A DNA stretch of 64,000 nucleotides from a virus: IMG/VR virus record IMGVR_UViG_3300009503_000030, positions 1 to 64,000 of that record; one strand, 5' to 3'. The notes beneath the pieces were generated by a model. That model was not told the origin of the DNA and searched no databases. It saw only the letters and a list, made by a program, of their open reading frames with translations. Position numbers and translations under genes: made by a program. Positions 3,627-63,464 of the stretch are shown here, in pieces (the first letter of the stretch is position 1; each line of letters starts with the position of its first letter).

Positions 3627-3842
3627 GAAAGTTAGCCGACAACATGACAAGCGTATGTGGGTCACGAAGCGCCCACGTCTCGCCGCAGAACCCCATTTAC
3701 GAGGCCGCGTATGACAGGTGCCCCCGCCAGAATACGGGGAGATGCGCAACGTGACAAGAGAAGCCGACGTGGCTCATAGTGTACAGCCCGATGCGGTCTA
3801 TCGGCGGCGCCCACACCACCGCGCGCGGCCCCCTCGCGACCG

Positions 3843-3871
3843 TTGACAGATGGCCAGACGCCGAGTATCAT
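3843..3871 (+). promoter_or_regulatory. Sigma70-type promoter for the RNase Z-like gene
   Basis: TTGACA (3843-3848), 17-bp spacer, TATCAT (3866-3871). Transcription would start near 3878, just before the GAGGAGG ribosome-binding site and the ATG at 3890. Confidence 0.8.
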
Positions 3872-3889
3872 GCGCACGAGGAGGCGGAG

Positions 3890-4864
3890 ATGCGCGTGCC
3901 AGTGCGCTACATCCTCCACAAATCGGCGGACTTGTCTCGCAGACATCCCGTGGTCAAGGTCCGGCACGACCCGCGGCTCGGCACCGTCACCCAGACCTAC
4001 TGGGAGGCCATCGAACAGCGCCCTGAGCCAGGAGAAACGCCCACGACGAACATGGAGGTCGCCGGAGTACAGGTGCGCGCCGTATCACGCGGCGGTATCT
4101 GCACCACACTGACCTTCCCAGAGTTCGATCTCACCGTGGACCTCGGCGTCCAGACGAAAGCCGCATCACGCACCTCGACGATTGCCCTCACCCACACGCA
4201 CACGGATCACATCGCGGGGCTACCGATGTATCTCGGCACGCGCAACATCCGGCAGCAGCCCAGGCCGCGGATCATTGTGCCGGCAGATATGGCCCCGACC
4301 CTGAGGACCTTCATCGAGACATTGGAGACACTACAAGGGGGGCCTCTGAACTACACCATCGTGCCAATCCACCAGCACGAGGAGATAGCGCTTGGCAAGG
4401 ACCTCGTGCTCCGAGCGTTCGGCACGGTTCACCGCGTGCCGTCCACGGGGTACGTCGTGATCCGGAGGCGGCAGAAACTGCGAGACGAGTACGTCGGGCT
4501 GCCACCGAAGGAGGTGGCGCGGCTCCGGAAGGAACGAGGGGATGCGCTGTTCCGCCTCGACGAACAACCCATCGTAGCAGTGACCGGGGATTCGACGGCC
4601 TCGGGCATGGACCTCGAGGACCCATACGTGCGCAACGCGAAGGTGCTGTTCGTCGAGGCAACCTACCTTGAGGACTTCGGTCGGGATACCGCGGAGGACC
4701 GCGGACATGCGCGGGTGGACGAGCTGTTCCCACGACTCGCGGAGCACCCCGCGGAGCGCATCGTTCTGTACCATTTCAGCGAGCGGTACACCGCGGAGCA
4801 GATCGCGGCGCTCAGAACCCGTCTGCCGTCGGACTTGGCGCGACGGGTGATGTTTTTGGCGTAG
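3890..4864 (+). CDS. Metallo-beta-lactamase fold hydrolase, RNase Z-like
   Basis: 324 aa from ATG 3890, which follows GAGGAGG; an upstream ATG at 3779 lies before the promoter and is rejected. The metal motif THTHTDHIAGLP is present, followed by VHRVPSTGYVV and a D-containing VAVTGDSTAS segment, then a late His (IVLYHFSERY). The order and the SxGY segment resemble tRNase Z, which trims tRNA 3' ends before CCA addition. Residues about 1-45 form a separate module (VVKVRHDPRLG then YWEAIEQ) shared with the next gene and two others. Context: the phage also carries tRNA-Pro without CCA and a CCA-adding enzyme, supporting a tRNA role by inference. Another MBL nuclease activity is possible. Confidence 0.75.
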   Translation: MRVPVRYILHKSADLSRRHPVVKVRHDPRLGTVTQTYWEAIEQRPEPGETPTTNMEVAGVQVRAVSRGGICTTLTFPEFDLTVDLGVQTKAASRTSTIALTHTHTDHIAGLPMYLGTRNIRQQPRPRIIVPADMAPTLRTFIETLETLQGGPLNYTIVPIHQHEEIALGKDLVLRAFGTVHRVPSTGYVVIRRRQKLRDEYVGLPPKEVARLRKERGDALFRLDEQPIVAVTGDSTASGMDLEDPYVRNAKVLFVEATYLEDFGRDTAEDRGHARVDELFPRLAEHPAERIVLYHFSERYTAEQIAALRTRLPSDLARRVMFLA

Positions 4865-4908
4865 GGGGCACCTTGCGAAACGTCCATGTCTCGCGTATCC
4901 TGAACACT

Positions 4909-4941
4909 AGAAAGGGTTCTCGACACTCGCGAGGTCGAGAC
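4909..4941 (+). repeat. Solitary CRISPR-repeat-like element upstream of an RBS
   Basis: AGAAAGGGTTCTCGACACTC then GCGAGGTCGAGAC. It matches the 3' array repeats, and the stem TCTCGAC/GTCGAGA is perfect. It ends two bases before the CAGGAGG ribosome-binding region of the gene at 4958. Confidence 0.85.
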
Positions 4942-4957: not shown

Positions 4958-5716
4958 ATGAACCACATCCGCTTCGTCGTGAAGGCAGCGGACCTCGTTG
5001 GCAAGCAACGGGTCGTGAAGGTCCGACGGGACCCACGGTTGGGCGCCGTGACCCAGGCGTATTGGGAGAGCGTCGAACAGCCAAGTACGGGAGCGCGGTT
5101 GCCGATGCTCCAACAGGACCTCGAGGCGCTCAACTTCGCGGCCACAGTCCAAAGCGGGCTCTTGCAGCACTACGCCATCGAGAATGGCCGCGCGACGAGG
5201 CCCAGACTCAAGCGGCTCGTGGAGCAAGGATATCTGAAGCGCAGCCCTGAAGAAAACCCTCTGCGTCTGACGGCGGATGAACCGTCATATTATGACTTTT
5301 ACGAACTGACCGAGGAGGGCAAACGCATGTTGGAGCAGGCGAAGGCGGCGGGCTTCTATCCGCGCGACACCTCGCCGACCTGGGGCTGGCAGGCGAAGGT
5401 GGACGATGGGGAGTATCGCGATGTCTCGCACATCGCGCGGCAACATGACGTTTTCAGAAGGGCGCGCATTGCGCTGTCCGAAAACGTGCAGTACGTGGTT
5501 CCAGAAGACCAGATCGCGGAACTGCTGAAAGTAGCCTACGATGCCGCCGTCAAGGCGCTGGACAACGATAGCAGCCTCTCATCCGTGAGGTTCACGATGC
5601 CAGTGCGGCGCGAGAACGCCACGTTTGAAGCCGGATTCGTGCTGGATGTCGAAAGAATCTACCATCGGCACCCAGATCAAGGCGGGGCGTTCGTCATCCG
5701 GATGTACGATGAGTGA
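4958..5716 (+). CDS. Winged-helix protein with shared N-terminal module
   Basis: 252 aa, ATG preceded by AGGAGGTG. Residues 1-42 (VVKVRRDPRLGAVTQAYWE) are nearly identical to the start of the RNase Z-like protein. Residues about 55-130 look like a MarR/PadR-type winged helix: LLQHYAIENGRATRPRLKRL, VEQGYLKR, then YELTEEGKRMLEQ as the wing and following helix. The C-terminal 110 residues are not recognised. The likely role is DNA binding, perhaps regulating phage genes. A solitary CRISPR-repeat-like hairpin sits in its presumed 5' untranslated region, so its expression could be touched by the Cas12m-like protein (inference). It converges with the resolvase gene and overlaps it by 23 bp. Confidence 0.6.
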   Translation: MNHIRFVVKAADLVGKQRVVKVRRDPRLGAVTQAYWESVEQPSTGARLPMLQQDLEALNFAATVQSGLLQHYAIENGRATRPRLKRLVEQGYLKRSPEENPLRLTADEPSYYDFYELTEEGKRMLEQAKAAGFYPRDTSPTWGWQAKVDDGEYRDVSHIARQHDVFRRARIALSENVQYVVPEDQIAELLKVAYDAAVKALDNDSSLSSVRFTMPVRRENATFEAGFVLDVERIYHRHPDQGGAFVIRMYDE

Positions 5717-6191: not shown

Positions 6192-7148
6192 TTACAGCAA
6201 CGGGCCGCGTTTGGCTTCCATGGCCCGCGGTGAAATCCAGAGACATTCGGTCCGTGGCACGTGTGTGTTGGCGCTACCGACGCCCTGTAGGCGCGAACCA
6301 CGGACACGGCCAGTGGCGGAACACGAGTACTCTCGTGTGACGCGGTGCCATCCGGCTTCGACGAGCGGGGCGTAGTCTGGGTGATCGTATCCACTGACCA
6401 CGGCCATCCCCTTGAGGTCGAGGAGCGCCGCCACGAGCCGACGGTGGTAGTCGGCGTCGGCGGACGCGGCGTATGGCAGGGACTCGGCGAGTCGCTCGGG
6501 GTGGTATGGCGGATCGCAATAGAAGAGGGTATCTGGGGTATCCCAGTAGGCGATGCACTCCATCGCATCCTTGCTATCGAGGAACACGCGGGAGATGCGG
6601 TCGTGGAAGCGGAGGAGCGCCGCGATGTGAGAGCGCCACGTGCCCACGTGCATAACCATTCCGCCACGAGCCATGAAGTTGCGGCCCCAACAACCTGGAC
6701 TACGCGCGGCCCCAGAAATGGCCTGGTTCTGCGAGACGAACACGGCCCATGCCCTCTCGACTGGACCGGCGTTCGGATCGGCGAGGAGTCGAAGCGCGCG
6801 CGTGAACTCTGCTTGCGAGTACGGCGTCCAGATGAGGCGATGGAGGAGGTCGCGGAAGAGCGTGGGGTCTTGAAGGACGCGGTACAGGTTGATGATGCGG
6901 TCATCCAGATCGTTCAGCACCTCGACGGGATACGGGTGCGGCAGCCGCCAGAAGACGGAGGCGCCGCCAGCGAACGGTTCGCAATAGACCTGGGCCGGTG
7001 GTAGAAAGCGCATGATCCAGTGTGCCAAGAGTCCCTTCCCACCGTACCAGACGACTGGTGCATTCTTTCGCGCGACTGGCCCGAGAGACCGCAGGAGTTC
7101 CGTGTCGATCTCCTCGGCGATCTGCTCGATGTCGTGGGTCTCTGTCAC
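6192..7148 (-). CDS. DNA adenine methyltransferase, D12/Dam class
   Basis: 318 aa. Starts at GTG 7148, overlapping the upstream stop (GTGA). Motifs: VVWYGGKGLLAHWI (SAM-binding start with the D12 GGK), VYCEPFAGGASVFW, LNDLDDRIINLY, and catalytic DTLFYCDPPYHPE. These are the order and spacing of Dam-like N6-adenine methylases. No restriction enzyme is adjacent, so it is an orphan methylase, probably protecting phage DNA or marking it. A second D12 methylase is encoded at 58993-59931 with low similarity outside the motifs. Recognition site not predictable from sequence alone. Confidence 0.88.
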   Translation of the reverse strand: MTETHDIEQIAEEIDTELLRSLGPVARKNAPVVWYGGKGLLAHWIMRFLPPAQVYCEPFAGGASVFWRLPHPYPVEVLNDLDDRIINLYRVLQDPTLFRDLLHRLIWTPYSQAEFTRALRLLADPNAGPVERAWAVFVSQNQAISGAARSPGCWGRNFMARGGMVMHVGTWRSHIAALLRFHDRISRVFLDSKDAMECIAYWDTPDTLFYCDPPYHPERLAESLPYAASADADYHRRLVAALLDLKGMAVVSGYDHPDYAPLVEAGWHRVTREYSCSATGRVRGSRLQGVGSANTHVPRTECLWISPRAMEAKRGPLL

Positions 7149-11918: not shown

Positions 11919-11969
11919 GGCGGAAGGACCGCCGGACCCCCACGCGGCGGGGGTTGAAAGGAGGGGACC
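11919..11969 (+). promoter_or_regulatory. Tandem-hairpin 5' leader, copy 1
   Basis: Hairpin I GGCGG/CCGCC (11919-11933), hairpin II CCCCC/GGGGG (11937-11953), then TTGAAAGGAGGGG and the GTG start at 11970. Same layout at 22696 and 32479. Confidence 0.8.
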
Positions 11970-14917: not shown

Positions 14918-16774
14918 ATGGCAACCAGGAACTGCCGGTACGGACTCTTGGCTCCCGTTGAGGGGCGGGACGAGGTGATGCGCCAACTGCGGGTCGCGCA
15001 CGAGGTCTACAATACGCTCGTCCAGTACGAGCGGGAGCGGCGGAAGGCGGTGGCCGATGCGACCCGCGAGACCGACGCGGAGGTCGCGCGGCTGGAGGCG
15101 GAGGTCGAGGGGCTGCTGTCCCGACTGGCGGACCTGCGTGCTGCGATCCAGGCGGCACGGGCCGGCGGTGGGGACAACGCGCGTCTCGCGGAGGCCCAGG
15201 CGGAGGCGCGCGAGTGCCGGCGGCTGCTTGGAGAGGCGAAGGGCGCGCTCCGAGAAACCAAGCGGGTCGCGCGGCAGAACCCCGCGCTGCGGGAGCGACT
15301 CGAGGCCATCAAGGCCGAACACCATCGGCGTCAACTCGCGCTCTACCATGAGGTCGTAGAGGTGGGCAAACGGCTGTACTGGCCCTCGTGGAACGACACG
15401 AAGGCCGCCGTCGAGCAGGCGGCGAAGAAGACGAAGAACGGCGACCTGCGGTTCCGGCGGTGGACCGGCGAGGGGAGCCTGTACACCCAGGTCCAAGGGA
15501 AGCAACCGGTCTGCGAGACGGCGACCTCGCGCTGGGTCCGGATCGACCCAGTGCCGCCCGAGGCGCATGATCCCGCGACGCCGCGCGGAGAGCGCCGGCG
15601 TCTGTGCCGGACCCGCTTCTATCTGCGCATCGGGAGCACGGGTCCACGGGAGGACCCTGTGTTCGCGGTGTTTCCGATGGTCTATCACAGGCCGCTGCCG
15701 GAGGGCGCCGTGATCTGCGGGGCGCGGATCGTCCGGCGCAAGAACGCGGACCGCGAGTACTGGCAGGCCGTGGTGACGGTGGACCTGCCGGATGAGGCCG
15801 CGCAGAAGAGCGGGCCGCGCGTCTGTGCGCTCGACATTGGATGGCGGGACCGGAGGCCCGGGGGCTCCGACGAGCCGCCGCCGCTGCGAGTCGCGGCCTG
15901 GTACGACGGGGACCGGACGGGCGAGGTGCTCGTGGACCCGTCGGTCTTCGAGCGATGTGCGAAGGCGGACGCGATCCGGAGCACGCGGGACCGGATGCTC
16001 GATGACCTGCGGGCGTGGCTCTGCGAGGCGCGCAAGGACCTTCCCGAGCACTTGGCGGAGGCGCTCGCGGGCTGTGGTCTGTGGCGGGCCGCGGGGAAGT
16101 TCGCGCGGCTGCGCGGGCTTCTGAGTTCCGGCGATGTGCCGGCGGAAGTGCGAGACCGGTTCCTCGCGTGGTATCACCGCGACCGGCACCTTTGGCAATA
16201 CGAGCACGGCATGAGGTTGAACGCGATCCGCGACCGCGACAACGCCTATCGGATCGCGGCGAAGCGGTTCGCCCAGGAGTACGACGTGCTGATCGTCGAG
16301 GCGACGGGCACGCCGCAGAAGGAGCGGGACCCGAAGGCGCCGGCGGCGATGGACCTGCGGCCCTTGATCAAGGAGCCGGACCCCGAGGACGCGCCGCCGC
16401 GAGACCAGCAGCGCGAAAGGAAAGAGAACAAGGCGCACCACCAGCGGTTCATCGCGGCGGCAGGGACGTTCAGGCGCTACCTGTTGGAAGCCGCGGCCAA
16501 GTACGGGACGCGCGTGGTGATGGTTCCGTGCGAGCAGACGACGTTGGAGTGCTGGGTCTGCGGGGCGAAGTACGAGTTCGACCGGTGGCCGCTGATGCAC
16601 GAGTGCGAGTCCTGCGGTACGACCTGGGACCAAGACCAGAACGCCGCGCGGAACCTGTTTGCGAGGGGCGCTGTGGCGGCGAAAGGGCCAGGGCCGCTCG
16701 AAGTGCAAGGAAAACCGCGACTTCCGCGATGGCATAAGCGCCACAAAGCGTACCGCGAGGGCGGGGCGGGGTGA
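14918..16774 (+). CDS. cas12m: Cas12m-like type V CRISPR effector (V-M / V-U1)
   Basis: 618 aa from ATG 14918 (AAAGGAGG). N-terminal half: long coiled coil (about 45-155), then LYWPSWNDTKAAVEQAAKKT, matching the YWASFNTVLDHHKTAV region of Cas12m as I recall it. RuvC-I CALDIGWRD (D306), bridge region FLAWYHRDRHLWQYEHGMRL, RuvC-II LIVEATGTPQK (E461), zinc site C545/C548/C563/C566, and RuvC-III DQDQNAARN (D573). Characterised Cas12m proteins bind DNA under crRNA guidance and silence without cutting, with altered RuvC residues; here all three acidic residues are present. A CRISPR array starts 56 bp downstream; no cas1, cas2 or cas4 is nearby. Likely role: RNA-guided interference against competing mobile DNA. 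A related phage-encoded type V subtype cannot be excluded without phylogeny. Confidence 0.88.
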   Translation: MATRNCRYGLLAPVEGRDEVMRQLRVAHEVYNTLVQYERERRKAVADATRETDAEVARLEAEVEGLLSRLADLRAAIQAARAGGGDNARLAEAQAEARECRRLLGEAKGALRETKRVARQNPALRERLEAIKAEHHRRQLALYHEVVEVGKRLYWPSWNDTKAAVEQAAKKTKNGDLRFRRWTGEGSLYTQVQGKQPVCETATSRWVRIDPVPPEAHDPATPRGERRRLCRTRFYLRIGSTGPREDPVFAVFPMVYHRPLPEGAVICGARIVRRKNADREYWQAVVTVDLPDEAAQKSGPRVCALDIGWRDRRPGGSDEPPPLRVAAWYDGDRTGEVLVDPSVFERCAKADAIRSTRDRMLDDLRAWLCEARKDLPEHLAEALAGCGLWRAAGKFARLRGLLSSGDVPAEVRDRFLAWYHRDRHLWQYEHGMRLNAIRDRDNAYRIAAKRFAQEYDVLIVEATGTPQKERDPKAPAAMDLRPLIKEPDPEDAPPRDQQRERKENKAHHQRFIAAAGTFRRYLLEAAAKYGTRVVMVPCEQTTLECWVCGAKYEFDRWPLMHECESCGTTWDQDQNAARNLFARGAVAAKGPGPLEVQGKPRLPRWHKRHKAYREGGAG

Positions 16775-16830: not shown

Positions 16831-17568
16831 GTGGAAAGGGTATCTCTGGACCTTACAATCAGAGACAAAAAGCGCAAGTGAAACGCGCCCTCGACCGGCT
16901 GCGGGTGGAAAGGGTATCTCTGGACCTTACAATCAGAGACTCCGGCGACCGCCAGGATCGGGTACGGGTGCGGGCCGAGTGGAAAGGGTATCTCTGGACC
17001 TTACAATCAGAGACTCGAGTGCACCCGACGGCCCCGGACCCGGTACACCCGCGTGGAAAGGGTATCTCTGGACCTTACAATCAGAGACCTCGCGGTCGGA
17101 CGGCTACACCCCTGGCTACACCCCGTGGAAAGGGTATCTCTGGACCTTACAATCAGAGACCCGGACTGGCTCTCCGACGCGCTCTGTGCGCTCGCGAGTG
17201 GAAAGGGTATCTCTGGACCTTACAATCAGAGACCGGCGCGAGCCGCACAACGGACACCCCGCCCCCCGTCGCAAGGGTATCTCGACACCTTCGAAGTCGA
17301 GACCGAGTGCCCCGGACCCCGTGCACGTGCGGCAAAGGTATCTCGACACCTTGGGAGTCGAGACACGCACCGGCACCGGCGCCGCGTCCGGACGCGAGAG
17401 TGGCAAAGGTATCTCGGCACCTTTGAAGTCGAGACGGGGTAGGTCGCGCCGCACACGCCGCACCGCAGCCGCATGGAAAGGGCATCTCGACGCCTTTGAA
17501 GACGAGACATGGTGGCGGCGCATCCAGCCTAGGTTGAAAGGGCATCTCGACGCCTGTGAGGTCGAGAC
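16831..17568 (+). CRISPR. CRISPR array, 11 repeats, 10 spacers
   Basis: Repeats of 36 bp start at 16831, 16905, 16979, 17053, 17125, 17198, 17268, 17329, 17400, 17473 and 17533. The first six are identical: GTGGAAAGGGTATCTC, then TGGACCTTACAATCAGAGAC. Repeats 7-11 diverge toward the distal end but keep the hairpin: TCTCTG/CAGAGA in 1-6 becomes TCTCGAC/GTCGAGA in 7 and 8, a compensatory change. Spacers 1-6 are 34-38 nt; spacers 7 and 10 are only 25 and 24 nt. The leader is on the effector side. A further partial repeat end (GAAGTCGAGAC) follows at 17569. Open frames across this region are translations of the array. Confidence 0.97.
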
Positions 17569-18279: not shown

Positions 18280-19920
18280 CTATCGCATGTTCTCTGAGGA
18301 TGAAAGCCCCAGCAGAAGTTCCTCCACCATGTCCTCGGCGCTTGCACCAGCGCCATCGAGCAGCCTGTCGGAGAGCTCCTGCTTCGCGATCAAGAGGCTT
18401 GCGAGACGCTGGTCAATGGTCCCGTCAATCACCAGGTGGTAGACGTTCACGGGGTCCGTCTGTCCAAGCCGGTGTATCCGGTCTTCGGCCTGCGTGATGT
18501 TTGCCGGAACCCAGTCAAGTTCCGCGAACACGGCGACTCGCGCGGCGGTCAACGTGAGCCCGACACCTGCCGCGGTAATCGAGCCGATGAAAACGCGGGT
18601 TCCGGCGGCTGTCTGAAAACGCTCAACGAGGCCGTCCCGCTCCTTCTGTGGGGTCTCCCCCGTCAAGACCACGGCCCCGTAGTCCCGTAGCCGTTCTGCC
18701 AAGATCGCAATCACGTCCTGATGATGCGCGAAGACCACGACCTTCCGCTCGGAGTCGAGGATGTCCGCCACCCACTCCGCGACAACCGGCGCCTTCGCGA
18801 GGGCCGTGGTGTGGCGGACGCGGCTGATCTCGGTGAGCGCGATACGACGGGCCTCCCGAAGGCGCGCGACCGCCTGGGCGTATGCGGTCGTGTCGTCAGG
18901 AGCCGCCTGGACCGCCTCCTGGGAAGGGCATCGCGACGCCTTGAAGAGCGAGACGTGCAGGGTTCGCAAGCAGAGCCCGTGCTTCTCCCAGAGCACCCGT
19001 TCGCAAGACAGGTCCACGGAGTCCGGTGGCGAGAGAATGACGAGCGACCGGCGCTTCGGGGGGAGTTGCGACAGCACGTCCCTCTTCAGCCGGCGGATCA
19101 TGATGGTCTCGCGGAGAATGGATGCGAGTTCCTCGATATTGGAGGCCCCGTCGGCCCTCCAGATCGAGCGCTGCACGCGGCCCTTCGTCCAGATGGTTTC
19201 GGTGTGCCCTGCGCAGTAGCGGACCTCGAACTGATGACGGGACCGCCAGCGTCCTGGGTCCAGCGCTTGGAGCGTGGTGTAGAGCTCGGCTGGGCGATTG
19301 AGGACTGGGGTCCCCGTCAAGAAGATGCGCCGTGATGCGGCGTGGACGAGGCCGCGTTGTCCGGCGGACGCCGTGTACCAGCGCCCGTATGCGTTCTTGC
19401 GGTAGCGCGGCGGGACGCCGCAGATCGCGCGCGTCTGCTGGGCGTCGGGGTTCTTCAACCGGTGCGACTCGTCCACAATGAGCAGGTCCCAATGCTGCAT
19501 GAGCATTGACAGTCGCATTGGATCGCGGACCTGCTCGTAGTTGGTGATGGCGAGGAGATTGCCGTCGGGCGGCACGGGGCCATCCACGATGACCACATCG
19601 AAGGGTCGCACGAGCCAACGGCGCGCCTCGTAGGCCCAGTTGGTCTTGAGCGTCGCGGGGCAGATTACGAGCACCCGTCGGATCGCGGGGTCCGCGTTGA
19701 CCAGTCCAAGCGCCTGGATGGTCTTGCCCGTGCCCATCTCGTCGGCGATCAGAGCGTTTTGTCTCGCAAGACAGAAGGCGATGCCCTCCTCCTGGAAGGG
19801 GAGGTAGTGCAACCCGTCGGGAGCGGGGATTGGGGGTCGGGCGGTGGTGAACGCTGGTTGGGGGGAGAACTTGGGAGGTCCGCCCGACCCCGCGGTGGGT
19901 CCAGTGGGGTATCCCATCAT
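18280..19920 (-). CDS. SNF2-family DNA helicase/translocase
   Basis: 546 aa from ATG 19920, overlapping the XRE stop (ATGA). Superfamily 2 motifs: LIADEMGTGKTIQ (I), LVICPATLKTNW (Ia), LLIVDESHRLKN (II, DESH), IFLTGTPVLNRP (III), VVVFAHHQDVI (IV), VFIGSITAAGVGLTLTAA (V), and QAEDRIHRLGQ (VI). This is the SMARCAL1/HARP-like pattern common in phages. Role: ATP-driven DNA translocation, possibly in fork remodelling. Odd: a solitary CRISPR-repeat-like element (18920-18954) lies inside the gene, antisense to it, and encodes LHVSLFKASRCPSQ between the two RecA lobes. Confidence 0.92.
   Translation of the reverse strand: MMGYPTGPTAGSGGPPKFSPQPAFTTARPPIPAPDGLHYLPFQEEGIAFCLARQNALIADEMGTGKTIQALGLVNADPAIRRVLVICPATLKTNWAYEARRWLVRPFDVVIVDGPVPPDGNLLAITNYEQVRDPMRLSMLMQHWDLLIVDESHRLKNPDAQQTRAICGVPPRYRKNAYGRWYTASAGQRGLVHAASRRIFLTGTPVLNRPAELYTTLQALDPGRWRSRHQFEVRYCAGHTETIWTKGRVQRSIWRADGASNIEELASILRETIMIRRLKRDVLSQLPPKRRSLVILSPPDSVDLSCERVLWEKHGLCLRTLHVSLFKASRCPSQEAVQAAPDDTTAYAQAVARLREARRIALTEISRVRHTTALAKAPVVAEWVADILDSERKVVVFAHHQDVIAILAERLRDYGAVVLTGETPQKERDGLVERFQTAAGTRVFIGSITAAGVGLTLTAARVAVFAELDWVPANITQAEDRIHRLGQTDPVNVYHLVIDGTIDQRLASLLIAKQELSDRLLDGAGASAEDMVEELLLGLSSSENMR
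18920..18954 (+). repeat. Solitary CRISPR-repeat-like element inside the SNF2 gene
   Basis: TGGGAAGGGCATCGCGACGC then CTTGAAGAGCGAGAC, closest to array repeat 10. It is in the orientation of the array, so helicase mRNA carries its complement (an anti-repeat). Stem partly degraded (TCGC/GCGA). Confidence 0.8.
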
Positions 19921-20228
19921 CCTCCTTTTCGGCGCGTGATGCAAGCGCCGTCATCACGATGCGTTCCGACGAGTTCATCGAGGCACACGTCGAGGACATG
20001 CGCCAGCAGCACCATGTCGGTGGCCGATGGGACGGTGCGCTCCGTCTCCCAGTTGGCGATGGTATTGATCGAGACGCGCCGACCGGTGTATTCGGCGAAG
20101 GCCGCGGCCAGGTCCTTGCGGCGCCAAGAGCGGGCCTCGCGATGGTGGCGGAGAAGCACGCCGCAGAAGGTCTCGACTTTGAAGGCGTCGCGATGCCCTT
20201 TCCATTTGGGCCTGTGCATCAGAGACAT
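19917..20228 (-). CDS. XRE-family HTH regulator, N terminus built from a CRISPR-like repeat
   Basis: 103 aa from ATG 20228. Residues 31-90 form a Cro/CI-type HTH: RRKDLAAAFAEYTGRRVSIN, TIANWETERTVPSATDM, VLLAHVLDVCLDELVG. Residues 8-20 (KWKGHRDAFKVET) are encoded by a full 36-bp CRISPR-repeat-like element (20170-20205) in frame, so the element either gave rise to or was inserted into the N terminus. The gene lies between the terminase-proximal small gene and the SNF2 helicase; probably a regulator within the leftward operon. Confidence 0.75.
   Translation of the reverse strand: MSLMHRPKWKGHRDAFKVETFCGVLLRHHREARSWRRKDLAAAFAEYTGRRVSINTIANWETERTVPSATDMVLLAHVLDVCLDELVGTHRDDGACITRRKGG
20170..20205 (-). 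repeat. Solitary CRISPR-repeat-like element at the start of an XRE gene
   Basis: On the minus strand ATGGAAAGGGCATCGCGACG then CCTTCAAAGTCGAGAC, a full 36 nt. It matches array repeats 10-11. Stem TCGCGAC/GTCGAGA has one mismatch. Confidence 0.85.
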
Positions 20229-22695: not shown

Positions 22696-22752
22696 GGCGG
22701 CGCTGCCGCCAGACCCCCGCATGGGGCGGGGGTTGAAAAGGAGGGAAGGAAG
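22696..22752 (+). promoter_or_regulatory. Tandem-hairpin 5' leader, copy 2
   Basis: Hairpin I GGCGG/CCGCC (22696-22710), hairpin II CCCCC/GGGGG (22714-22732), then TTGAAAAGGAGGGAAGG before ATG 22753. The first hairpin starts 10 bp after the -10 hexamer, so it lies at the 5' end of the RNA. Confidence 0.8.
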
Positions 22753-27542: not shown

Positions 27543-28937
27543 ATGAACATCCAAGAAGGATTCGGGTCGATCAGCCCAAGCGAACTGATCGAGTTGCGCA
27601 AGGCGCTCGCCTTCAACACGCCGACGCCGGCGACTGGGGGCGAGGGGTACGGATGGCCGCTCGTCCCACAGGACATCGAGGCGGTCCTCGCGATGGCCAC
27701 GATCCGCGCGAAGCAGATTCGCTTCTACCAAGCCATCCCGAAGCCCGATGAACTGCTCGGGAGTGCGGTGTACGAGTACACCCGCCAGCAGGAGATCGGC
27801 TACGACGTGGAGCCGTTCGTGACGGAGGGGGTGCTGCCCTTCGAGCACGTCTCGCAGTACAAGCGCGAGTTCACCCGCGCGAAGTACATGGCGACGCTCC
27901 GGCGGGTGACGGACGTGATGGCCTCGGTGAACACCATCGGGGGCGCCGACGCGGTGACGAGGGAGAGCGTCAACGGGACGATTCACCTGTTGGCCCAGGT
28001 CGAGCGTGGACTGTTCCACGCCGACGAGAGCCTCAATCCCGCGGCGTTCAACGGAGTGTTCGCGACGATCCGCAACCAGTTCGCCGAGAACATCGTGGAC
28101 CTGCGGGGGGCCGAGATGAGCGTGGACACCTGTCTCGAGCTCACGGCCCAACTCGTGAACCCGCCGCGCTACGCCTTCCCCCAGGCGATGTGGCTGTCGC
28201 CGTCGGCGCTGGTCTCGCTCGGGAAGGAATCCACGAGCCAGCTCCTCTACTTCGCGGACCCGACGAACCCACAGCAGTATCGTCCGGCGGTGGGCGCGCT
28301 GCCTCGGGGGTTCATGGGGGCGCATGGGGAGATGGTGGTGTACGAGCCGGACATCTTCCTGGAGCCGGAGTTCCCGCGGTCGGAAGCCTCCGTCGGGGAC
28401 GCGCCCGAGCAGACGTTCAGCGTGACGCCTGCGGTGGTGGACCCAGGCCCTGGCGAGACGTCGCAGTTCGCGGCGGGCGATGCGGGTGACTACATCTACG
28501 GAGTGGCGGCAGTCGGCCCAGGTGGGCGGTCGGCCATCGCGAAGACCGCGGCCCAGACCGTAGCCGCTGGCAAGAAGGTCACCCTGACCATCGCGAAGAC
28601 TGGTGGGTCGGTCAATGACATCACCTACTACCAGGTCTTCCGCACGCGGAAGGGCGAGACGAAACTCTGGCTGATCGGGGGTATCGCGTACAACGGGGGC
28701 GTCGCGTCCGTCACCTTCAGTGATCTCAACGACGAGATTGCGGGGACGAGCAAGGCGCTGATCTTGGAGTACGACCCGACGGTCATCCAGTTCAAGCGCC
28801 TCCTGCCCCTGATCCGCATCCCGTTCGCGAAGATCGACCTGTCGGTGCGCTTCGCGGTGGCCCTGTTCGGGATGCCGGTCATCGAAACGCCGACGAAGAT
28901 TCTCTGCATCAAGAACATCGCCTCGACGCAGAAGTGA
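27543..28937 (+). CDS. Major capsid protein with inserted FN3/Ig-like domain
   Basis: 464 aa, ATG after GAGGAGGTGAGCG. HK97-like capsid features: N-terminal PLVPQDIEAVLAMATI, long helix-rich middle (FTRAKYMATLRRVTDVMASV), peripheral part VYEPDIFLEPEFP, and C-terminal EYDPTVIQFKRLLPLIRIPF with FGMPVIETPTK. Residues about 290-405 form an insertion (DYIYGVAAVGPGGRSAIAKT, ITYYQVFRTRKGETKLWL) with the pattern of a fibronectin III or Ig-like domain, likely exposed on the shell. Follows the protease-scaffold gene. The insertion may bind surfaces (inference). Confidence 0.85.
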   Translation: MNIQEGFGSISPSELIELRKALAFNTPTPATGGEGYGWPLVPQDIEAVLAMATIRAKQIRFYQAIPKPDELLGSAVYEYTRQQEIGYDVEPFVTEGVLPFEHVSQYKREFTRAKYMATLRRVTDVMASVNTIGGADAVTRESVNGTIHLLAQVERGLFHADESLNPAAFNGVFATIRNQFAENIVDLRGAEMSVDTCLELTAQLVNPPRYAFPQAMWLSPSALVSLGKESTSQLLYFADPTNPQQYRPAVGALPRGFMGAHGEMVVYEPDIFLEPEFPRSEASVGDAPEQTFSVTPAVVDPGPGETSQFAAGDAGDYIYGVAAVGPGGRSAIAKTAAQTVAAGKKVTLTIAKTGGSVNDITYYQVFRTRKGETKLWLIGGIAYNGGVASVTFSDLNDEIAGTSKALILEYDPTVIQFKRLLPLIRIPFAKIDLSVRFAVALFGMPVIETPTKILCIKNIASTQK

Positions 28938-29155
28938 TGACGGATGGCCGGTGAGCGGCGCGACGGCCCCAGCGTATCGGTTGGGGTAGTCGCGAGCCGG
29001 TCCTAGTCCTACCGAGCAGGCGGTGGCGGTCATCGCGCAGCCCCGCGCGATTGCCACGCAGTTCAGGCGCCTGTCATGTGGGCGTTGAGGGTATCTCTGG
29101 ACCTACGAAGCAGAGACGCCGCGAGACACGGAGCCGACCCCGTTAGCCTGTCTCA
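28938..29155. other. Intergenic region between capsid and convergent head-tail genes
   Basis: About 218 bp without a gene. It contains a short GGTTGGGGTAGTC stretch and one solitary CRISPR-repeat-like hairpin (29084-29117). No T-tract terminator seen. Confidence 0.6.
29084..29117 (+). repeat. Solitary CRISPR-repeat-like element downstream of the capsid gene
   Basis: GTTGAGGGTATCTCTGGACC then TACGAAGCAGAGAC. It keeps the exact TCTCTGGACCT core of array repeats 1-6 and the TCTCTG/CAGAGA stem. Could stall or end transcription between convergent operons (inference). Confidence 0.85.
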
Positions 29156-32478: not shown

Positions 32479-32536
32479 GGCGCGGACGAAGCGCCATCCC
32501 GCCGATGGGCGGCGGGTGAAAAGGAGGGAACCAGCC
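32479..32536 (+). promoter_or_regulatory. Tandem-hairpin 5' leader, copy 3
   Basis: Hairpin I GGCGC/GCGCC (32479-32495), hairpin II CCCGCC/GGCGGG (32498-32516), then TGAAAAGGAGGGAACC. Different bases but the same paired structure as copies 1 and 2. Confidence 0.75.
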
Positions 32537-49071: not shown

Positions 49072-50928
49072 TCATTCCGTCCTCGGGCGTATAGTGCCCT
49101 CCCGCACGCTCTCAAGGCGTCTTGCGAGACGGGCCAGCTCCCCAAAGCCAGCCCGCACATCGTCCGCCGCGAACTCCCGCATGATCGCGATCACCATGGC
49201 CATCGTAGCGCTCAACTGCTCCGTGTAGGTACGCACCTGGTCCCAGGCAACGGCGGTCTGCTGCATGGATTCCACCAGTGCCCGACGCTCCATTGCCGCT
49301 GGTGCGGCTTCTGGGAGCACGCGCGCAACGAGACTCGTGAATGCTTCTTGTAGCGCTACACCGACATCCCGTGGTTCTGTGGGTGGTGGGGCCACGCGCT
49401 CTGGCACCTCTGGTGCCGCCGCCCAGCGCCGTCCAAGCGATGGGGCCACCTGCAAGGCCCCGGCGTAGAAGAATGGAGCGAGAGGCCCTACCCTCCGCCC
49501 CGCGCGACGGATGATCTCGTTGACCGCCCGTGGGTCCTCTGCGAGCGCGGCCATCTGCTCAAGGTTCCCGCCTGCCTCTGTCGCCAGTTCGCCCATGAGC
49601 ATCGCCTGAATCGTATCCTGGGGCATGACCATGCCCGTCACGCGCTGTAGAAGGCCCATTTGTGCCTGCTGGATCGCGCCTGGCAGGCCCATCGCCGCCC
49701 GCCCCTGGATTCCGCCTGCCGCCGCCTGTTGCAGGACGTTCGTCACGAAGTACGGCGAGACACTCATCCCCATCTGGGCCGCACGCTCCGTGATCCGCAC
49801 CTGCTCCTGGAGCATCCGGGGCATTTCGCTCGATGCGAGTCCCGCCGCGGTCCCCGCGCGCACGGCCTCTTGCAAGATCAGGGTCGGAGCGCTGCGCAGG
49901 TCCAGCCCCGTCGTTTCGTATCCGTACCCTGGCCGGAAACCGCGCGTGAAGGCCCCAAGTTCTCCGGCATTGATTCCCCAGACCCGCTCAAAATACCCAA
50001 GCGCCTGGACTGGCACCGGCAATCCACCTTGCGCCGCGGCCTGGGCCTGTCGTTGCAACACGTCCTGGTAGGTCAAGTAGAATGGTGCGCCGCCACCAAT
50101 GATCTCAGGCTCGGTCCCAGGGAGGTTGTAGCGATACCCACCGCGCGCCGCGACAAGCATCGGCTCGACGGTCCCGTATCGGGCCGTGATCGCCTGTTCG
50201 TAGCGCTCGACCGCCGACCGGCGCACTTGCGCCTCTTCTTCGGCGAGCGCGCTGAACCGCTGCGTCAGGAGATTCGTGACGACCGATGTTATGATGCTGG
50301 CCGCCGCAAGCGCTCCGGCGACCGGCAGGGCGCCTGATGCCGCCGCGACGCCGGCGCCGGTCATCAGCCCAGCGGACGCCACGCCTCCGGCCCCAGCGCC
50401 CATCTGAATGTATGCCTGGCGCTCCACGAGTCGGGCCTGGATCAGTCCGATGGTGAGCCCCGCGGGGGTCCCAGCCATGAGCCCGCCGGCCTCGACGGGG
50501 ATGGCGGCGAACATCCCGCGCCCCCAGGCCTCCGCTGTCTGCTCGATCAGCCGGTTGATCACGTAGCCCGCGGCGTAGGCTACACCTTGATCCAGCCGCC
50601 GAACGCCAACCCCCCCCAAGAAGCGTTCGAGCGCAGAGCGCTGCCTCTCAGGTGCCGTGGCTCCCTCCGCTACGCCCGTGGGTTCCGTGGGCGTCGTCAG
50701 AGTGGGGGTCGGGGCCGGCGTCGGCGCCGGCGCAGGGGGCGGCGTGACGGTCGGCGCTGTCGTCGGCGCCGGTGTCGGCGCCGGTGTCGGCGCCGGCGTC
50801 GGTGGTTGCACTGGCGTGACGTTGATCCGATTGATGCGCGTCTCGATGTCTCGCAGAAGGTCGAGGATTCGCTGAAGATTCCGTGGGTCGGCCTCGACGG
50901 CGACCGTTGTCTGAAAGTCAGCGGGCAT
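49072..50928 (-). CDS. Tail tape measure protein
   Basis: 618 aa from ATG 50928 (GGGAGGGCC before it). Starts FQTTVAVEADPRNLQRILDL, then a repetitive Pro-Thr-Ala-Pro linker (about 40-90), hydrophobic helices around residues 150-240 (GAGGVASAGLMTGAGVAAAS, GALPVAGALAAASIITSVVT), and long helices to the end. Composition and place after the tail chaperone identify it. Short for a myovirus, implying a short tail. A solitary CRISPR-repeat-like hairpin lies directly upstream of its ribosome-binding site. Confidence 0.8.
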   Translation of the reverse strand: MPADFQTTVAVEADPRNLQRILDLLRDIETRINRINVTPVQPPTPAPTPAPTPAPTTAPTVTPPPAPAPTPAPTPTLTTPTEPTGVAEGATAPERQRSALERFLGGVGVRRLDQGVAYAAGYVINRLIEQTAEAWGRGMFAAIPVEAGGLMAGTPAGLTIGLIQARLVERQAYIQMGAGAGGVASAGLMTGAGVAAASGALPVAGALAAASIITSVVTNLLTQRFSALAEEEAQVRRSAVERYEQAITARYGTVEPMLVAARGGYRYNLPGTEPEIIGGGAPFYLTYQDVLQRQAQAAAQGGLPVPVQALGYFERVWGINAGELGAFTRGFRPGYGYETTGLDLRSAPTLILQEAVRAGTAAGLASSEMPRMLQEQVRITERAAQMGMSVSPYFVTNVLQQAAAGGIQGRAAMGLPGAIQQAQMGLLQRVTGMVMPQDTIQAMLMGELATEAGGNLEQMAALAEDPRAVNEIIRRAGRRVGPLAPFFYAGALQVAPSLGRRWAAAPEVPERVAPPPTEPRDVGVALQEAFTSLVARVLPEAAPAAMERRALVESMQQTAVAWDQVRTYTEQLSATMAMVIAIMREFAADDVRAGFGELARLARRLESVREGTIRPRTE

Positions 50929-51148
50929 CCGGCCCTCCCGTATCGCGCCTTTCAAGGTGTCGCGATACCCTTTCCACCAGACCATACCTTTCGCGGAACT
51001 CCCGCTCAAGTCGGGCGATCTCGGGGTCCGTGATCGCCTCCAACGGGGGCACGATCTCCTCCGCCGGCGGAGGCTCCGATGCGTATCGTTCCGCGAGCCT
51101 GTAGAGCATCAGGAGGCCGATGGGGACCCGTGGCGCCTGGTCAACGGG
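50918..51148 (-). CDS. Tail chaperone extension, probably made by +1 frameshift
   Basis: Open in the +1 frame relative to the short form; from the slip at CCCC (51149-51146) it reads VDQAPRVPIGLLMLYRLAER then YASEPPPAEEIVPPLEAITD and on to about 74 residues. No independent start with a ribosome-binding site is visible. The short form ends AAT CCC CGT TGA: a Pro-tRNA on CCC can slip forward to the overlapping CCC two codons before the stop. A -2 slip at TTTTTT (51217-51212) is the alternative. Confidence 0.65.
   Translation of the reverse strand, partial: PVDQAPRVPIGLLMLYRLAERYASEPPPAEEIVPPLEAITDPEIARLEREFRERYGLVERVSRHLERRDTGGPDAR
50942..50977 (-). repeat. Solitary CRISPR-repeat-like element upstream of the tape-measure RBS
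   Basis: Minus strand GTGGAAAGGGTATCGCGACA then CCTTGAAAGGCGCGAT. Stem has changed on both sides to TATCGCG/CGCGATA, a compensatory change relative to the array. It encodes VERVSRHLERR at the C terminus of the chaperone extension. Confidence 0.85.
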
Positions 51149-51569
51149 GATTCTGCACGGGCTGAACCACCACGATCTGGCGACTCTCTTCGCCGCCTTG
51201 TCTATACCGGCGAAAAAAGTCGGCTTCGAACCGCGCCACCTCCTCCGATACCGCGACGAAGATTTCGGGTCCGAGCTGGTCAAGCGGACGCTTGAACCAG
51301 TCTGGCGACTCCTCCACGAGCACTGCGCATCGGGCCATCGCCAGGAGCAGCGTCTGGATGTCTGCGGGCAACGATTGCCACGCGGCCCCCCGCGCCAGTC
51401 CAGAGAGGGCCACCGCCAGTTGCCGCACGTCTTCTGCTGTCGGTAGCCGCGCGACGAACGTCCCTTCGAGGTCCTCTCCCTTCGGAGACCGGTAGCGGAC
51501 GGCGAACCGATGCTTTCCATCTGGGATGGCCTCCGCGGTCTCGCGAACGATGTCCTGGATGGAGGGCAT
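51141..51569 (-). CDS. Tail assembly chaperone, short form
   Basis: 142 aa, ATG 51569 after TGAGGTGACCA. MPSIQDIVRETAEAIPDGKH, then a beta domain (HRFAVRYRSPKGEDLEGTFV) and helical C terminus (LLLAMARCAVLVEESPDWFK). Length, place between tube and tape-measure genes and the overlapping extension in another frame fit a gpG/GT-type chaperone. It would coat the tape measure during tail assembly. Confidence 0.75.
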   Translation of the reverse strand: MPSIQDIVRETAEAIPDGKHRFAVRYRSPKGEDLEGTFVARLPTAEDVRQLAVALSGLARGAAWQSLPADIQTLLLAMARCAVLVEESPDWFKRPLDQLGPEIFVAVSEEVARFEADFFRRYRQGGEESRQIVVVQPVQNPR

Positions 51570-58144: not shown

Positions 58145-58969
58145 TCACCTCCACCAGACGGTGATCGTCAGAAACAGTCGGCCAATCACGGTCCCAGGGT
58201 CACCCGACGCCTTCGCGTAGACCTGCGATCCGCCGAGTCCCTCCTCAGCAGGGAACGGCGTCTTGACGAATGCGTGGTCCGACGCGACGAGGATCGCGAT
58301 CTCGGAGCCCATGTTCCCCAGCGTCAGGACGCTGTTCACGGCATCCCAGCCGGGCGCCAGTTCGACCGGCCCCTGAGCGGAGGCATCCGCCGCAGAGAAG
58401 ATTTCGTCTGCGTTCGTGCCGCCCCCGATACTGATCGTGGAGCCCGCCGGTCCTGGGGTCTCGATTGCGAGGAGCGCATCATGGATGATGGCGCCTGATG
58501 GCAGCACCCCGATCTGCACCGGCGTCGTGGGCACCGTGACCGTGAAAGCGATGTTGTAGAGTTGGAGTCTCGCGTTCAGTGCGGTGTCAAGATAGGCCTT
58601 GCCGTAGTACGCATCGTCGTGATTGTGGAGGGGCTTCGCCGCCAGCCGGATGAAGCGCCCCGTCTCTGGCGCCGAGTTGTGGGCGACGATGTAATCCTCG
58701 TCGGCCACCGCCGTGGAGTCGGCATCCCAGACATACACACGCGGGGCTTCCCCGGCGCTGCCCGCGACGACATACACCTGCTCGTCCGCCAGTTTGGAGA
58801 AGGTCAGGGACTTCAAGGCAGACAGGCTGTTGACCTTCGCTCCGATCCGTGTGGCGATCTCGGTGATGCTCGTACCCTCAGAGGCGAGGGCAGATTCAAG
58901 TGCCTGCAACTTGTCGAGGAGGCCCGCCCGAATCAATCGGAACGGGTTGCGGGTCTTGTACAGGTCCAT
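58145..58969 (-). CDS. Putative decoration or fiber-like virion protein, 274 aa
   Basis: ATG 58969 after GGAGGTGCGTC. N-terminal helix (LDKLQALESALASEGTSITE), then a beta-rich domain with a VYVWDADSTAVADEDYIVAH segment typical of tail-fiber or tip repeats, and C-terminal AFTVTVPTTPVQIGVLPSGA, IDDALLAIETPGPAGSTIS-like strands. Likely an exposed structural protein. A partial CRISPR-like repeat lies immediately upstream of its ribosome-binding site. Confidence 0.5.
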   Translation of the reverse strand: MDLYKTRNPFRLIRAGLLDKLQALESALASEGTSITEIATRIGAKVNSLSALKSLTFSKLADEQVYVVAGSAGEAPRVYVWDADSTAVADEDYIVAHNSAPETGRFIRLAAKPLHNHDDAYYGKAYLDTALNARLQLYNIAFTVTVPTTPVQIGVLPSGAIIHDALLAIETPGPAGSTISIGGGTNADEIFSAADASAQGPVELAPGWDAVNSVLTLGNMGSEIAILVASDHAFVKTPFPAEEGLGGSQVYAKASGDPGTVIGRLFLTITVWWR

Positions 58970-58980
58970 GACGCACCTCC

Positions 58981-59010
58981 TTGTCAAAGGTGTCAAAACA
59001 CCCTTTCCAC
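58981..59010 (-). repeat. Partial solitary CRISPR-repeat-like element
   Basis: Minus strand GTGGAAAGGGTGTTTTGACA then CCTTTGACAA: 5' half matches the array repeat, the GAGAC end is lost. It supplies the last codons (VERVF) and stop of the methylase gene and ends at the next RBS. Confidence 0.65.
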
Positions 59011-59931
59011 ATCGCAATCTTCTGCGGATGCACGCTCCATGTCAAGCCCCTCTTTGAGCGCGTGCCAGCCGCTCTGAAACAGGTGCTCCAGGTGCCGCCG
59101 GTTGTTCGGATGAAAGAGCCAGAACCTTGCGAGACGCCGTTCGGCGAGTGTTTCAGAAAGGGAGTAGTTCGCGTACACGGCCTCGACCTTGCGCGCGGCG
59201 CTGCCCATCTTGCGCATCCTCACGCGCGTCCGACGCTCGAATCCCAGGGCGTCCAGATACGGATGCTGGTAGTGCGAGAGCAGAACCCGCGCCTTCGCCT
59301 CCCGCATCCACTGCACCAGGTCGTGAAAATCGTCTTCGGTCCAGGTACTGCCGTACTGGTTCGTGCTCTCGTAGTACGGCGGGTCCAGATAGAAGAAGTA
59401 TCCTTCGCGGTCGTAGTCGCGCGCGACGGCGCGCCAGTCGCGGCACATCAGCACCGCGCGCCTCAGTTTCGCGGAGATCAGTGCGGCGGTGCGGTACGAG
59501 AAGGGTACGGCGGTCCCGCGCGACGCGCGATGCCCGAGGATACCGAAGTAGGCGCACGAGTATCCCGCAAGGACGGCGTAGGCCGCCTCCACCGATGGTC
59601 TGTCGTGATGGCGGAGGCTCCCAAGTATCCGTCGCACCACATGTTCATCCTCATCGGAGTTGGACTGCTCGCGGAGTCGCCGCGCCAGGTCACGCGCCAG
59701 GTCTGGGGCGGCCATGACCCGCCAAACGTTCACCACCATTGGTGACACGTCGTTCAAGATCAGGTTCTTCGGGTCAACGTTCCTCACGTTGAGGTACACC
59801 GTCAGCATCCCCCCGAACGGCTCGACGTAGAACCGATGGTCTGGGAACCACCGATAAATCCAGGGGATGAGGGCGTATTTGCCGCCAGGGTATTTCACAA
59901 GGACCAGCGCGTCTCGCAGTTGCGCGTCCAT
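58993..59931 (-). CDS. DNA adenine methyltransferase, D12/Dam class (second copy)
   Basis: 312 aa from ATG 59931. VKYPGGKYALIPWIYRWFPD, FYVEPFGGMLTVYLNV, LNDVSPMVVNVWRVM and YFFYLDPPYYESTNQY are the D12 motifs. There is no clear ribosome-binding site, and the predicted -10 (TACCAT) ends 7 bp before the ATG, so the mRNA may be leaderless. Its last five codons come from a CRISPR-repeat-like element. Orphan methylase, distinct from the 6192 gene. Confidence 0.88.
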   Translation of the reverse strand: MDAQLRDALVLVKYPGGKYALIPWIYRWFPDHRFYVEPFGGMLTVYLNVRNVDPKNLILNDVSPMVVNVWRVMAAPDLARDLARRLREQSNSDEDEHVVRRILGSLRHHDRPSVEAAYAVLAGYSCAYFGILGHRASRGTAVPFSYRTAALISAKLRRAVLMCRDWRAVARDYDREGYFFYLDPPYYESTNQYGSTWTEDDFHDLVQWMREAKARVLLSHYQHPYLDALGFERRTRVRMRKMGSAARKVEAVYANYSLSETLAERRLARFWLFHPNNRRHLEHLFQSGWHALKEGLDMERASAEDCDVERVF

Positions 59932-62385: not shown

Positions 62386-62675
62386 GACACGTCGAGCGGG
62401 AGCCGCGATTGCGGATCGTCCTGCACAAGGACGAGCATGACGGCGAGACATTCTACACGATCTCGCTGACCGCTCGTGGCTTCACGGGTGTCATACCGGA
62501 TACATGGATCGAGCCACGGCAGAAGTTCGCAACTACTGACGCCGCACGGGTTTTCGCGGTCAACAGGCTTGCGGACCTGCGGCGCGATGTGGAGAATCTG
62601 ATCGAGCGGGCCAGGAAGGCACTGGACGTGCTCGACAAGGCCCGCCAGGAGGTGCTCGATGGGAAGGACGTTTGA
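62382..62675 (+). CDS. Hypothetical lysis-cluster protein, 97 aa
   Basis: ATG 62382 in ATGA overlap. Beta-rich half (FYTISLTARGFTGVIPDTWI) and a helical half (DVENLIERARKALDVLDKAR). Not recognised. Overlaps the next gene by 17 bp. Confidence 0.55.
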   Translation: MRHVEREPRLRIVLHKDEHDGETFYTISLTARGFTGVIPDTWIEPRQKFATTDAARVFAVNRLADLRRDVENLIERARKALDVLDKARQEVLDGKDV

Positions 62676-63132
62676 ACGGGCGGGTGCGTGGAACACGGTG
62701 CGCGGCCTCGAGTGGGCGGCGCTCGTCGTGGCGGCGCTGCTCGGGGTCGGAGAGGCGATCCTGGGACACGGGGCCGGACTCGTTCCTCCGGCGGTGATCG
62801 CGGCAGTAGCCGTCGCGGTCAAGGCGCTGCGCGCGGTGCTCGCGGTGACCGCCGACGTGCGGTCCTCGACGGTGTCCCCGGCGTCCTGGGCTGTCGCCGT
62901 GGTCCTCGCGCTCGTCGGGAGTCTCGCGGGCGAGGTGGCTGGACAGAAGCAGGAGGTGGTCCATGAAATCACCGTCATCGTGGGTCCGGATGTTGCTGGC
63001 GGTGCCGTTCGTGATGCTCTTGACGCCGCTGGTGATCCTGGTCCAGTGGATCATCTGGGCGGCGGGGACCCTGTAGAAAGATATCTCGACACCTTGGAAG
63101 GCGAGACATGCTCCGGCGGGTCCGGAGATTGA
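62659..63132 (+). CDS. Putative holin, C terminus from a CRISPR-like repeat
   Basis: 157 aa. Three hydrophobic stretches: LEWAALVVAALLGVGEAILG, VIAAVAVAVKALRAVLAVTA, SWAVAVVLALVGSLAGEVAG, as in class I holins. The 3' third overlaps another ORF (62963) in a different frame. The last dozen residues (VERYLDTLEGET) are encoded by a solitary CRISPR-repeat-like element, so an older stop may have been lost. Confidence 0.55.
   Translation: MGRTFERAGAWNTVRGLEWAALVVAALLGVGEAILGHGAGLVPPAVIAAVAVAVKALRAVLAVTADVRSSTVSPASWAVAVVLALVGSLAGEVAGQKQEVVHEITVIVGPDVAGGAVRDALDAAGDPGPVDHLGGGDPVERYLDTLEGETCSGGSGD
62963..63074 (+). CDS. Small membrane protein, 36 aa
   Basis: ATG after CAGGAGGTGGTCC, a strong RBS. Encodes KSPSSWVRMLLAVPFVMLLT then PLVILVQWIIWAAGTL, one or two membrane helices. 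Embedded in the 3' end of the holin-like gene. Candidate holin/antiholin or i-spanin piece. Confidence 0.6.
63072..63106 (+). repeat. Solitary CRISPR-repeat-like element in the lysis cluster (1)
   Basis: GTAGAAAGATATCTCGACAC then CTTGGAAGGCGAGAC. Stem TCTCG/CGAGA intact. Contains the stop of the 36-aa ORF and codons of the holin-like gene. Confidence 0.85.
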
Positions 63133-63183
63133 CATTGGCGGGGGCCAATGGCGCGAGACACGGGGTGGCAACCGTGACCGCGC

Positions 63184-63216
63184 ATGAGGGTATCTCTGGA
63201 CCTTCAGACCAGAGAC
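63184..63216 (+). repeat. Solitary CRISPR-repeat-like element in the lysis cluster (2)
   Basis: ATGAGGGTATCTCTGGACCT then TCAGACCAGAGAC. The stem is extended to TCTCTGG/CCAGAGA. It ends shortly before the AGGAGG of the lipoprotein gene. Confidence 0.88.
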
Positions 63217-63239: not shown

Positions 63240-63464
63240 ATGAGGCTGTTGATCGTGCTCGTGCTTTCGTGCGTCTTCTTGGCGTGCGGCACCATCACGC
63301 CGGCGATCAAGGAGGCCACGGACGTGATAGCCTGCCGGTACGCGGCCTACGTCTCGCGAGACGAGGCGCTCAAGCCGGACGAGCAGGCGCTGCGGCGGGA
63401 AATGGCCGAGAACCTGCGGCATCAGGTCGGGCTGACCGGCGCCTGTCCCGACTACGGGAGGTGA
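63240..63464 (+). CDS. Lipoprotein (o-spanin-like), 74 aa
   Basis: ATG 63240 after AGAGGAGGTACCAG. MRLLIVLVLSCVFLACGTIT is a lipoprotein signal with lipobox ending in Cys16. The mature part is small and helical. Small outer-membrane lipoproteins in lysis clusters are typically o-spanins, which would imply a Gram-negative-type envelope (inference). Confidence 0.65.
   Translation: MRLLIVLVLSCVFLACGTITPAIKEATDVIACRYAAYVSRDEALKPDEQALRREMAENLRHQVGLTGACPDYGR

Follow-up and report, generated by a model that had tools for sequence, protein, structure and literature searches.

Rickettsia palindromic elements are palindromic units that lie in frame inside protein genes. The solitary repeat units of phage genomes (SRUs, Racr) are single CRISPR repeats that keep the RNA structure of the repeat, are often intergenic, and in some cases lie behind promoters; they often occur without associated cas genes and act on the system of the host, and the published search for them centred on intergenic regions (PMC10651486). 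The SAS and ESAS elements of cluster K mycobacteriophages are repeats in one orientation, placed just before start codons throughout the genome, and have no binding partner described. SAS is a 13-bp element that contains the Shine-Dalgarno sequence itself (consensus GGGATAGGAGCCC), ESAS adds an inverted repeat, and a role in translation initiation has been proposed for both (PMC3203893). In the cryo-EM structure of the type V-M effector Cas12m2, the crRNA scaffold is a hairpin plus a pseudoknot with a recognised terminal C (PMC10442227). Finally, TldR proteins are phage-encoded RNA-guided repressors of the TnpB family that regulate host flagellin expression (PMC13418256).

The window analysed here, 64,000 nucleotides in length, is the first 64 kb of a virus contig of 70,541 bases that belongs to a tailed phage by gene content (major head protein, portal, tail sheath, and terminase). 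The phage encodes a type V-M-like system, i.e., a Cas12m relative plus an array. By sequence homology, the product of the gene at 14918..16774 (plus strand, 618 aa) is assigned to the Cas12m effectors: its closest solved relative is Cas12m 23vw (phmmer E=1.8e-56), nearly the full length aligns with Cas12m2 (8hio/8hhl, E about 2e-20), and Pfam matches a TNB zinc-finger domain. The RuvC residues align as D, E, D, and as DED is given for clades 3 and 4 (PMC10442227), this triad is compatible with the wider Cas12m family. Directly behind the effector gene lies the CRISPR array (16831..17568, plus strand), with 11 repeats of 36 nt and spacers of 24–38 nt. The first six repeats, nearest the effector gene, are identical (GTGGAAAGGGTATCTCTGGACCTTACAATCAGAGAC), whereas the distal five are divergent and show stem changes that occur in pairs (CTCTG/CAGAG vs CTCGAC/GTCGAG), the array being composed of two repeat types with compensated stems. 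The array of a related phage, G001 (IMGVR 3300010938_000648), also has two repeat types in matching order, with sequences different from those of the window. The repeats have the hairpin plus pseudoknot layout, with covariation in both helices. An Rfam scan gave a tRNA as its sole match.

Further repeated sequences occur in the window. The noncoding segment 3035–3552 holds three related GC-rich copies (CGCACGTGTTGCGCGCGCC...AATAGTCGAGCGCGCGCGT) spaced at about 210–230 bases, perhaps a replication origin or iteron set. Another motif, GGGCGGGGGTTGAAAAGGAGGGAA, is found before gene starts at 11945–11968, 22724–22747, and 32507–32530, i.e., about 10 kb apart; at least two copies directly precede the start, and it is perhaps a promoter and ribosome-binding module.

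A profile search with a scoring model built from array repeats only (the window and G001 arrays) identified ten solitary repeats outside the array, eight in the window and two beyond it (contig 66747–66782 and 70056–70091). Their scores range from 11.4 to 30.8 bits, the weakest three being the copies at 18919, 4906, and 58975, whereas the best score in 40 dinucleotide-shuffled genomes was 10.9. The 3'-terminal GAC is present in eight of ten copies. Half of this inventory was missing from the preliminary description of the window (4906–4941, 29082–29117, 63181–63216, 66747–66782, and 70056–70091); the other half, i.e., the repeat in the XRE-like gene and the named sites at 18919–18954, 50942–50977, 58975–59010, and 63072–63107, was found where it had been reported.

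Five of ten copies end 5–23 nt before a same-strand start codon, compared with 2.4% expected per copy (p=1.7e-6; gene starts are approximate, as they come from a simple finder based on codon usage and Shine-Dalgarno sequences). The copy at 4906..4941 (plus strand) is an intergenic leader element 16 nt before ATG 4958, with AGGAGG in between, and precedes a gene for a 252-aa protein with no family found (4958..5716, plus strand). An RNase Z-like gene (3791–4864) lies just 5' of this copy, an unusual cargo that might matter for RNA processing. The copy at 50942..50977 (minus strand), with the terminal stem altered on both sides (ATCGCG/CGCGAT), is situated 13 nt before ATG 50928 of a 618-aa gene of the tail region (49072..50928, minus strand), GGGAGG being in between; it also falls into the C-terminal part of the overlapping frame 50918–51520 (...LVERVSRHLERRD...). 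The degenerate copy at 58975..59010 (minus strand), which has lost its 3' stem and carries AAGGAGG in its 3' end, is only 5 nt before ATG 58969 of a gene with no family found (58145..58969, minus strand, 274 aa) and covers the last codons and stop (...DVERVF*) of a D12-class (Dam-like) methyltransferase gene (58993..59931, minus strand). This methyltransferase gene is one of two of its class in the phage, the other being located at 6192–7148. The copy at 63181..63216 (plus strand) is again an intergenic leader element, 23 nt before the start 63240 of a lipoprotein-like gene (63240..63464, plus strand), with AGAGGAGG in between, and the copy at contig 70056–70091 (plus strand) lies 17 nt before a same-strand start.

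For noncoding copies only, four of five are in the pre-start position vs 9% expected (p=3e-4); this conditional bias is weaker than the raw one, part of which may simply mean that insertions between genes are tolerated. The Shine-Dalgarno sequence belonging to a leader copy is no more than about 17 nt from the repeat, at the place where the crRNA guide (spacer) would begin, and would be covered by bound Cas12m; as a consequence of the start bias, this arrangement does not count as separate evidence.

The two copies that are in frame near a protein N-terminus both have a good Shine-Dalgarno sequence upstream. One is the repeat at 20170..20205 (minus strand, 36 nt, ATGGAAAGGGCATCGCGACGCCTTCAAAGTCGAGAC), which in sense orientation encodes residues 8–20 of a 103-aa XRE-like regulator (19917..20228, minus strand, MSLMHRPKWKGHRDAFKVET...; GGAGG before ATG 20228), with coordinates and residue numbers exactly as in the preliminary description. 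The HTH_31 match of this protein begins at residue 23, just after the repeat-encoded part, and its homologues match the HTH part only. The other is the copy at contig 66747–66782 (minus strand), encoding residues 13–24 of the 66147–66818 protein, for which a homologue search yielded none. The remaining three copies are each of a different kind. The first (63072..63107, plus strand) lies in the tail of a holin-like gene (62659..63132, plus strand; ...PVERYLDTLEGET...), whose product has a repeat-encoded C-terminus (VERYLDTLEGET). The second (29082..29117, plus strand) is placed between convergent genes, 3' of the major head protein gene (27543–28937) and sense to it, and the third (18919..18954, plus strand) is antisense in the gene of an SNF2-like helicase (18280..19917, minus strand), between the helicase lobes.

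It had been proposed that the repeat serves as coding sequence at protein termini. This describes some of the copies, namely those in the XRE-like gene, in the SNF2 linker (antisense), and at gene ends, but it is not the main rule, as half of the copies are leader elements. The copies at 50942 and 58975 overlap the end of the upstream frame and hence looked like C-terminal coding sequence, although they are leaders of the next gene; the frames that recur among coding copies are explained by a 36-nt (12-codon) element with few stops.

An RNA-level role was not part of that proposal. Nevertheless, the fold of the Cas12m crRNA, a hairpin plus a pseudoknot, is preserved in the dispersed copies, with covariation. 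The repeat pairs columns 13–19 with 29–35 (hairpin) and 7–10 with 21–24 (pseudoknot), a layout of the same kind as that of the Cas12m2 crRNA (PMC10442227). In an alignment of solitary copies alone, 87% of cells are paired, compared with 31–50% in slid registers, and five pairs are changed on both sides, vs a shuffle mean of 1.7 (reached in 1/500 shuffles). Some of this covariation could simply have been carried over in recent copies of array repeats that had diverged beforehand. Energy folding of the leaders, by a method that does not include pseudoknots, gave nothing unusual (z from -1.7 to +0.9).

Intergenic hairpins abound in phages, and the copies might in principle be ordinary hairpins near starts that either resemble the repeat accidentally or serve as terminators. 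Such an origin is extremely improbable given the full-length sequence match far above shuffles, the conservation of the pseudoknot and of the 3' GAC, and the lack of a T tract directly behind the copies.

The preliminary description also suggested mobility of the repeat, and the comparison of related phages supports it, the differences in presence and absence being real. Shared between G001 and the contig of the window are the Cas12m gene (92% aa identity), the lysis region, and a segment close to the end of the contig. It lacks the 63181 copy in the orthologous leader of the lipoprotein-like gene. Its solitary copy (n=1) is that of the holin-like gene, flanked by CTGGCGGTG and TGGGCGGCGGGGAC; 51 different bases take its place in the window, whose own copy lies downstream and not upstream of the shared TGGGCGGCGGGGAC. 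The shift is suggestive rather than strict, since TGGGCGGCGGGGAC is a short block of 14 exact bases. Near the end of the contig, the homology with G001 extends to the start of the 70056 repeat, beyond which the two sequences differ. The 174 bases preceding this point (contig 69882–70055), which end exactly at the repeat, are rich in inverted repeats and 88% identical in G001, possibly representing a noncoding RNA. For SNF2, a scan yielded distant relatives only; the two best-aligned ones (L049 and L051) are shorter by about 10 residues at the site of the antisense repeat, and the linker is variable in the others. A search with the 62014 gene retrieved only G001 and L011, a 99.99% copy of this virus, and no relatives were found with the terminase as bait.

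These comparisons, together with the unbroken frames of the copies in coding sequence and the antisense copy in SNF2, also fit a passive mobile palindrome, i.e., a repeat that spreads by copying or recombination like REP or Rickettsia palindromic elements, survives where it does little harm (gaps between genes, leaders, termini, and linkers), and has no present function. The likeness to palindromic elements that insert in genes, noted previously, holds for a minority of copies only, namely those that are in frame and absent from orthologues. A preference for noncoding sites, observed both in the window and in a second phage (G012, below), would likewise be expected of such an element. However, passive spread is opposed by the compensatory changes in the dispersed copies, by a same-strand start bias in excess of the noncoding bias, and by the recurrence of the phenomenon in a distantly related phage whose repeat has another sequence; moreover, no mobilising enzyme was identified. 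We regard passive spread as rather unlikely, though second in probability to the Cas12m-linked leader elements discussed below.

Cas12m scans of viral contigs yielded nine further phage contigs besides G001, to which Rctr197k was added from a phage collection, and in each phage dispersed copies were sought with its own array repeat. The contigs G011 and G012 represent one virus (99.99%), and those of G007 and G005 are truncated or short. G012 (177,773 bases), whose Cas12m is 36% identical to that of the window, contains about 40 copies of its own repeat, located in mini-arrays at several sites and at 18 solitary sites. All 18 solitary copies are noncoding (noncoding sequence being 8.7% of the genome, p=8e-20), and nine of them precede a start by no more than 60 nt (null 4.1%, p=1e-8); given noncoding location, 18.5% would be expected (p=0.0025). 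The G012 copies, array ones included, show covariation in the pseudoknot and hairpin, with 97% of cells paired and 24 double-change cells. As its repeat sequence differs from that of the window, G012 is an independent instance of the same arrangement. Other phages have fewer copies: three occur in G008, one of them 24 nt before ATG 10609, right behind the Cas12m stop; the single copy of Rctr197k precedes a tRNA-Met gene by 24 nt; and the single copy of G006 (406 kb) lies 20 nt before a start, close to the array and behind promoter-like TTGACA/TATATT. No dispersed copies were found in G009, G010, and G013, which are phage contigs with a Cas12m array. In Rctr197k, a second, different CRISPR array lies beside another TnpB-like (transposase-like) protein (L013 2664–2918).

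Five solitary repeats of G012 (1838, 16875, 142152, 156323, and 157768) share about 60 bases upstream with promoter-like TTGACA...TAAGCT. Their downstream sequences differ, and they look like dispersed promoter-plus-repeat cassettes, several of which point back into a gene 3' end. Such an upstream region fits decoys or guides better than leaders, suggesting that more than one use is possible. As decoys, the copies would be Racr-like RNA anti-CRISPRs directed at a Cas12m of the host, or they would titrate the Cas12m that the phage itself encodes. Phage solitary repeat units are known and have been shown to act so for other types, and promoter-like sequences upstream, as seen in G012 and before the G006 copy, have been described for SRUs (PMC10651486). 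SRUs, though, are often not associated with cas genes, while the window phage has its own effector and an array with the same repeat, and its ten copies stand before phage gene starts, some of them in coding sequence, rather than in a dedicated transcript. Nor was a bacterial genome with the window repeat found in a single genome scan: that scan of bacterial genome contigs yielded three distant Cas12m loci, none with the window repeat in the stretches examined. On this evidence, a decoy role is improbable.

Alternatively, each repeat plus its downstream sequence might form a single-guide crRNA unit directed against related phages, like virus-borne mini-arrays. A single crRNA suffices for Cas12m2, and no host ribonuclease takes part in processing its pre-crRNA (PMC10442227); moreover, G012 has mini-arrays at several sites, and a guide taken from the start of a gene could hit relatives that lack the repeat there. 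Against this, the 17 nt behind each copy have no good match elsewhere among the phages compared, and the leader "spacer" is merely a Shine-Dalgarno sequence and start codon, which makes us rate such guides as more doubtful still than decoys. Neither the array spacers nor the guides of the solitary copies had convincing targets among the sequences compared, and no targets of the array spacers were found in the phage collection. Self-targeting by leader guides was also considered and rejected, as the would-be protospacer is preceded on its 5' side by the end of the repeat (GAC) and not by TTN.

The place of the copies and their covariation indicate a role in RNA, for which Cas12m, whose relatives bind such folds, is the only obvious partner. 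The most likely reading, which we put forward tentatively and at somewhat less than an even chance, is that repeats copied out of the array have for the most part come to lie in mRNA leaders, where they are retained as Cas12m-binding RNA elements. Single repeats would over time have been copied from the array into dispersed sites, mainly sense-orientation 5' leaders of phage genes, with recombination and copying from the array as candidate routes of the spread seen between relatives. Once transcribed, a repeat would adopt the fold of the Cas12m crRNA scaffold, with its 3' hairpin, its pseudoknot, and the 3'-terminal GAC, and be kept for that. We infer that the leader copy is transcribed with its gene and that the phage's own Cas12m binds it in the mRNA, the Shine-Dalgarno sequence and start codon occupying the place of the crRNA guide; binding or cutting at the leader would then lower or time the translation of that gene. 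Copies in coding sequence (XRE-like, 66147, SNF2, and holin-like genes) would be tolerated insertions in which 36 nt add 12 codons. A broader proposal, possible but less likely than Cas12m-binding leader elements as such, is that Cas12m phages use Cas12m as an RNA-binding regulator of their own genes, with array-derived scaffolds in many leaders forming a phage-wide regulon whose input is the level of Cas12m (or crRNA).

If the dispersed repeats act via Cas12m in mRNA, a CRISPR effector would gain a second job, regulating its carrier virus with no spacer needed, and phage solitary repeat units would be linked to gene control, with their placement explained. Even without a regulatory function, the window and G012 show CRISPR repeats leaving the array and spreading through a phage genome, within and between genes.

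Among the described systems, Rickettsia palindromic elements differ in that most window copies lie outside genes or at their edges and, as CRISPR repeats, have a cognate effector. With SAS/ESAS, the window and G012 share a concentration of repeats just before starts in one orientation. However, the window element is a 36-nt Cas12m repeat and not the SAS consensus, is mostly separate from the Shine-Dalgarno sequence, and has a candidate binder in Cas12m. TldR is similar in that a phage employs a TnpB-family protein as a regulator, whereas the suggested targets in the window phage would be its own mRNA leaders, reached via the scaffold (PMC13418256). Type V-M Cas12m systems (PMC10442227; PMC11013384) share effector homology, the 36-nt repeat, and a crRNA with hairpin plus pseudoknot, but the window RuvC triad is D-E-D, whereas Cas12m2 has the non-canonical H-D-D. 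The literature searched, which includes few subscription journals, describes neither dispersed repeats in V-M systems nor a set of them next to a Cas12m that the phage itself encodes. SRU/Racr is similar in that the window copies are single repeats outside an array in a mobile element, with the structure kept; the differences are that the Cas12m gene and array are on the same contig as the copies, and that there are about ten dispersed copies with a bias to 5–23 nt before starts, some of them inside genes. Thus, single phage repeats were already known from SRU/Racr, and what is new here is the dispersed, start-associated set of repeats beside the phage's own Cas12m.
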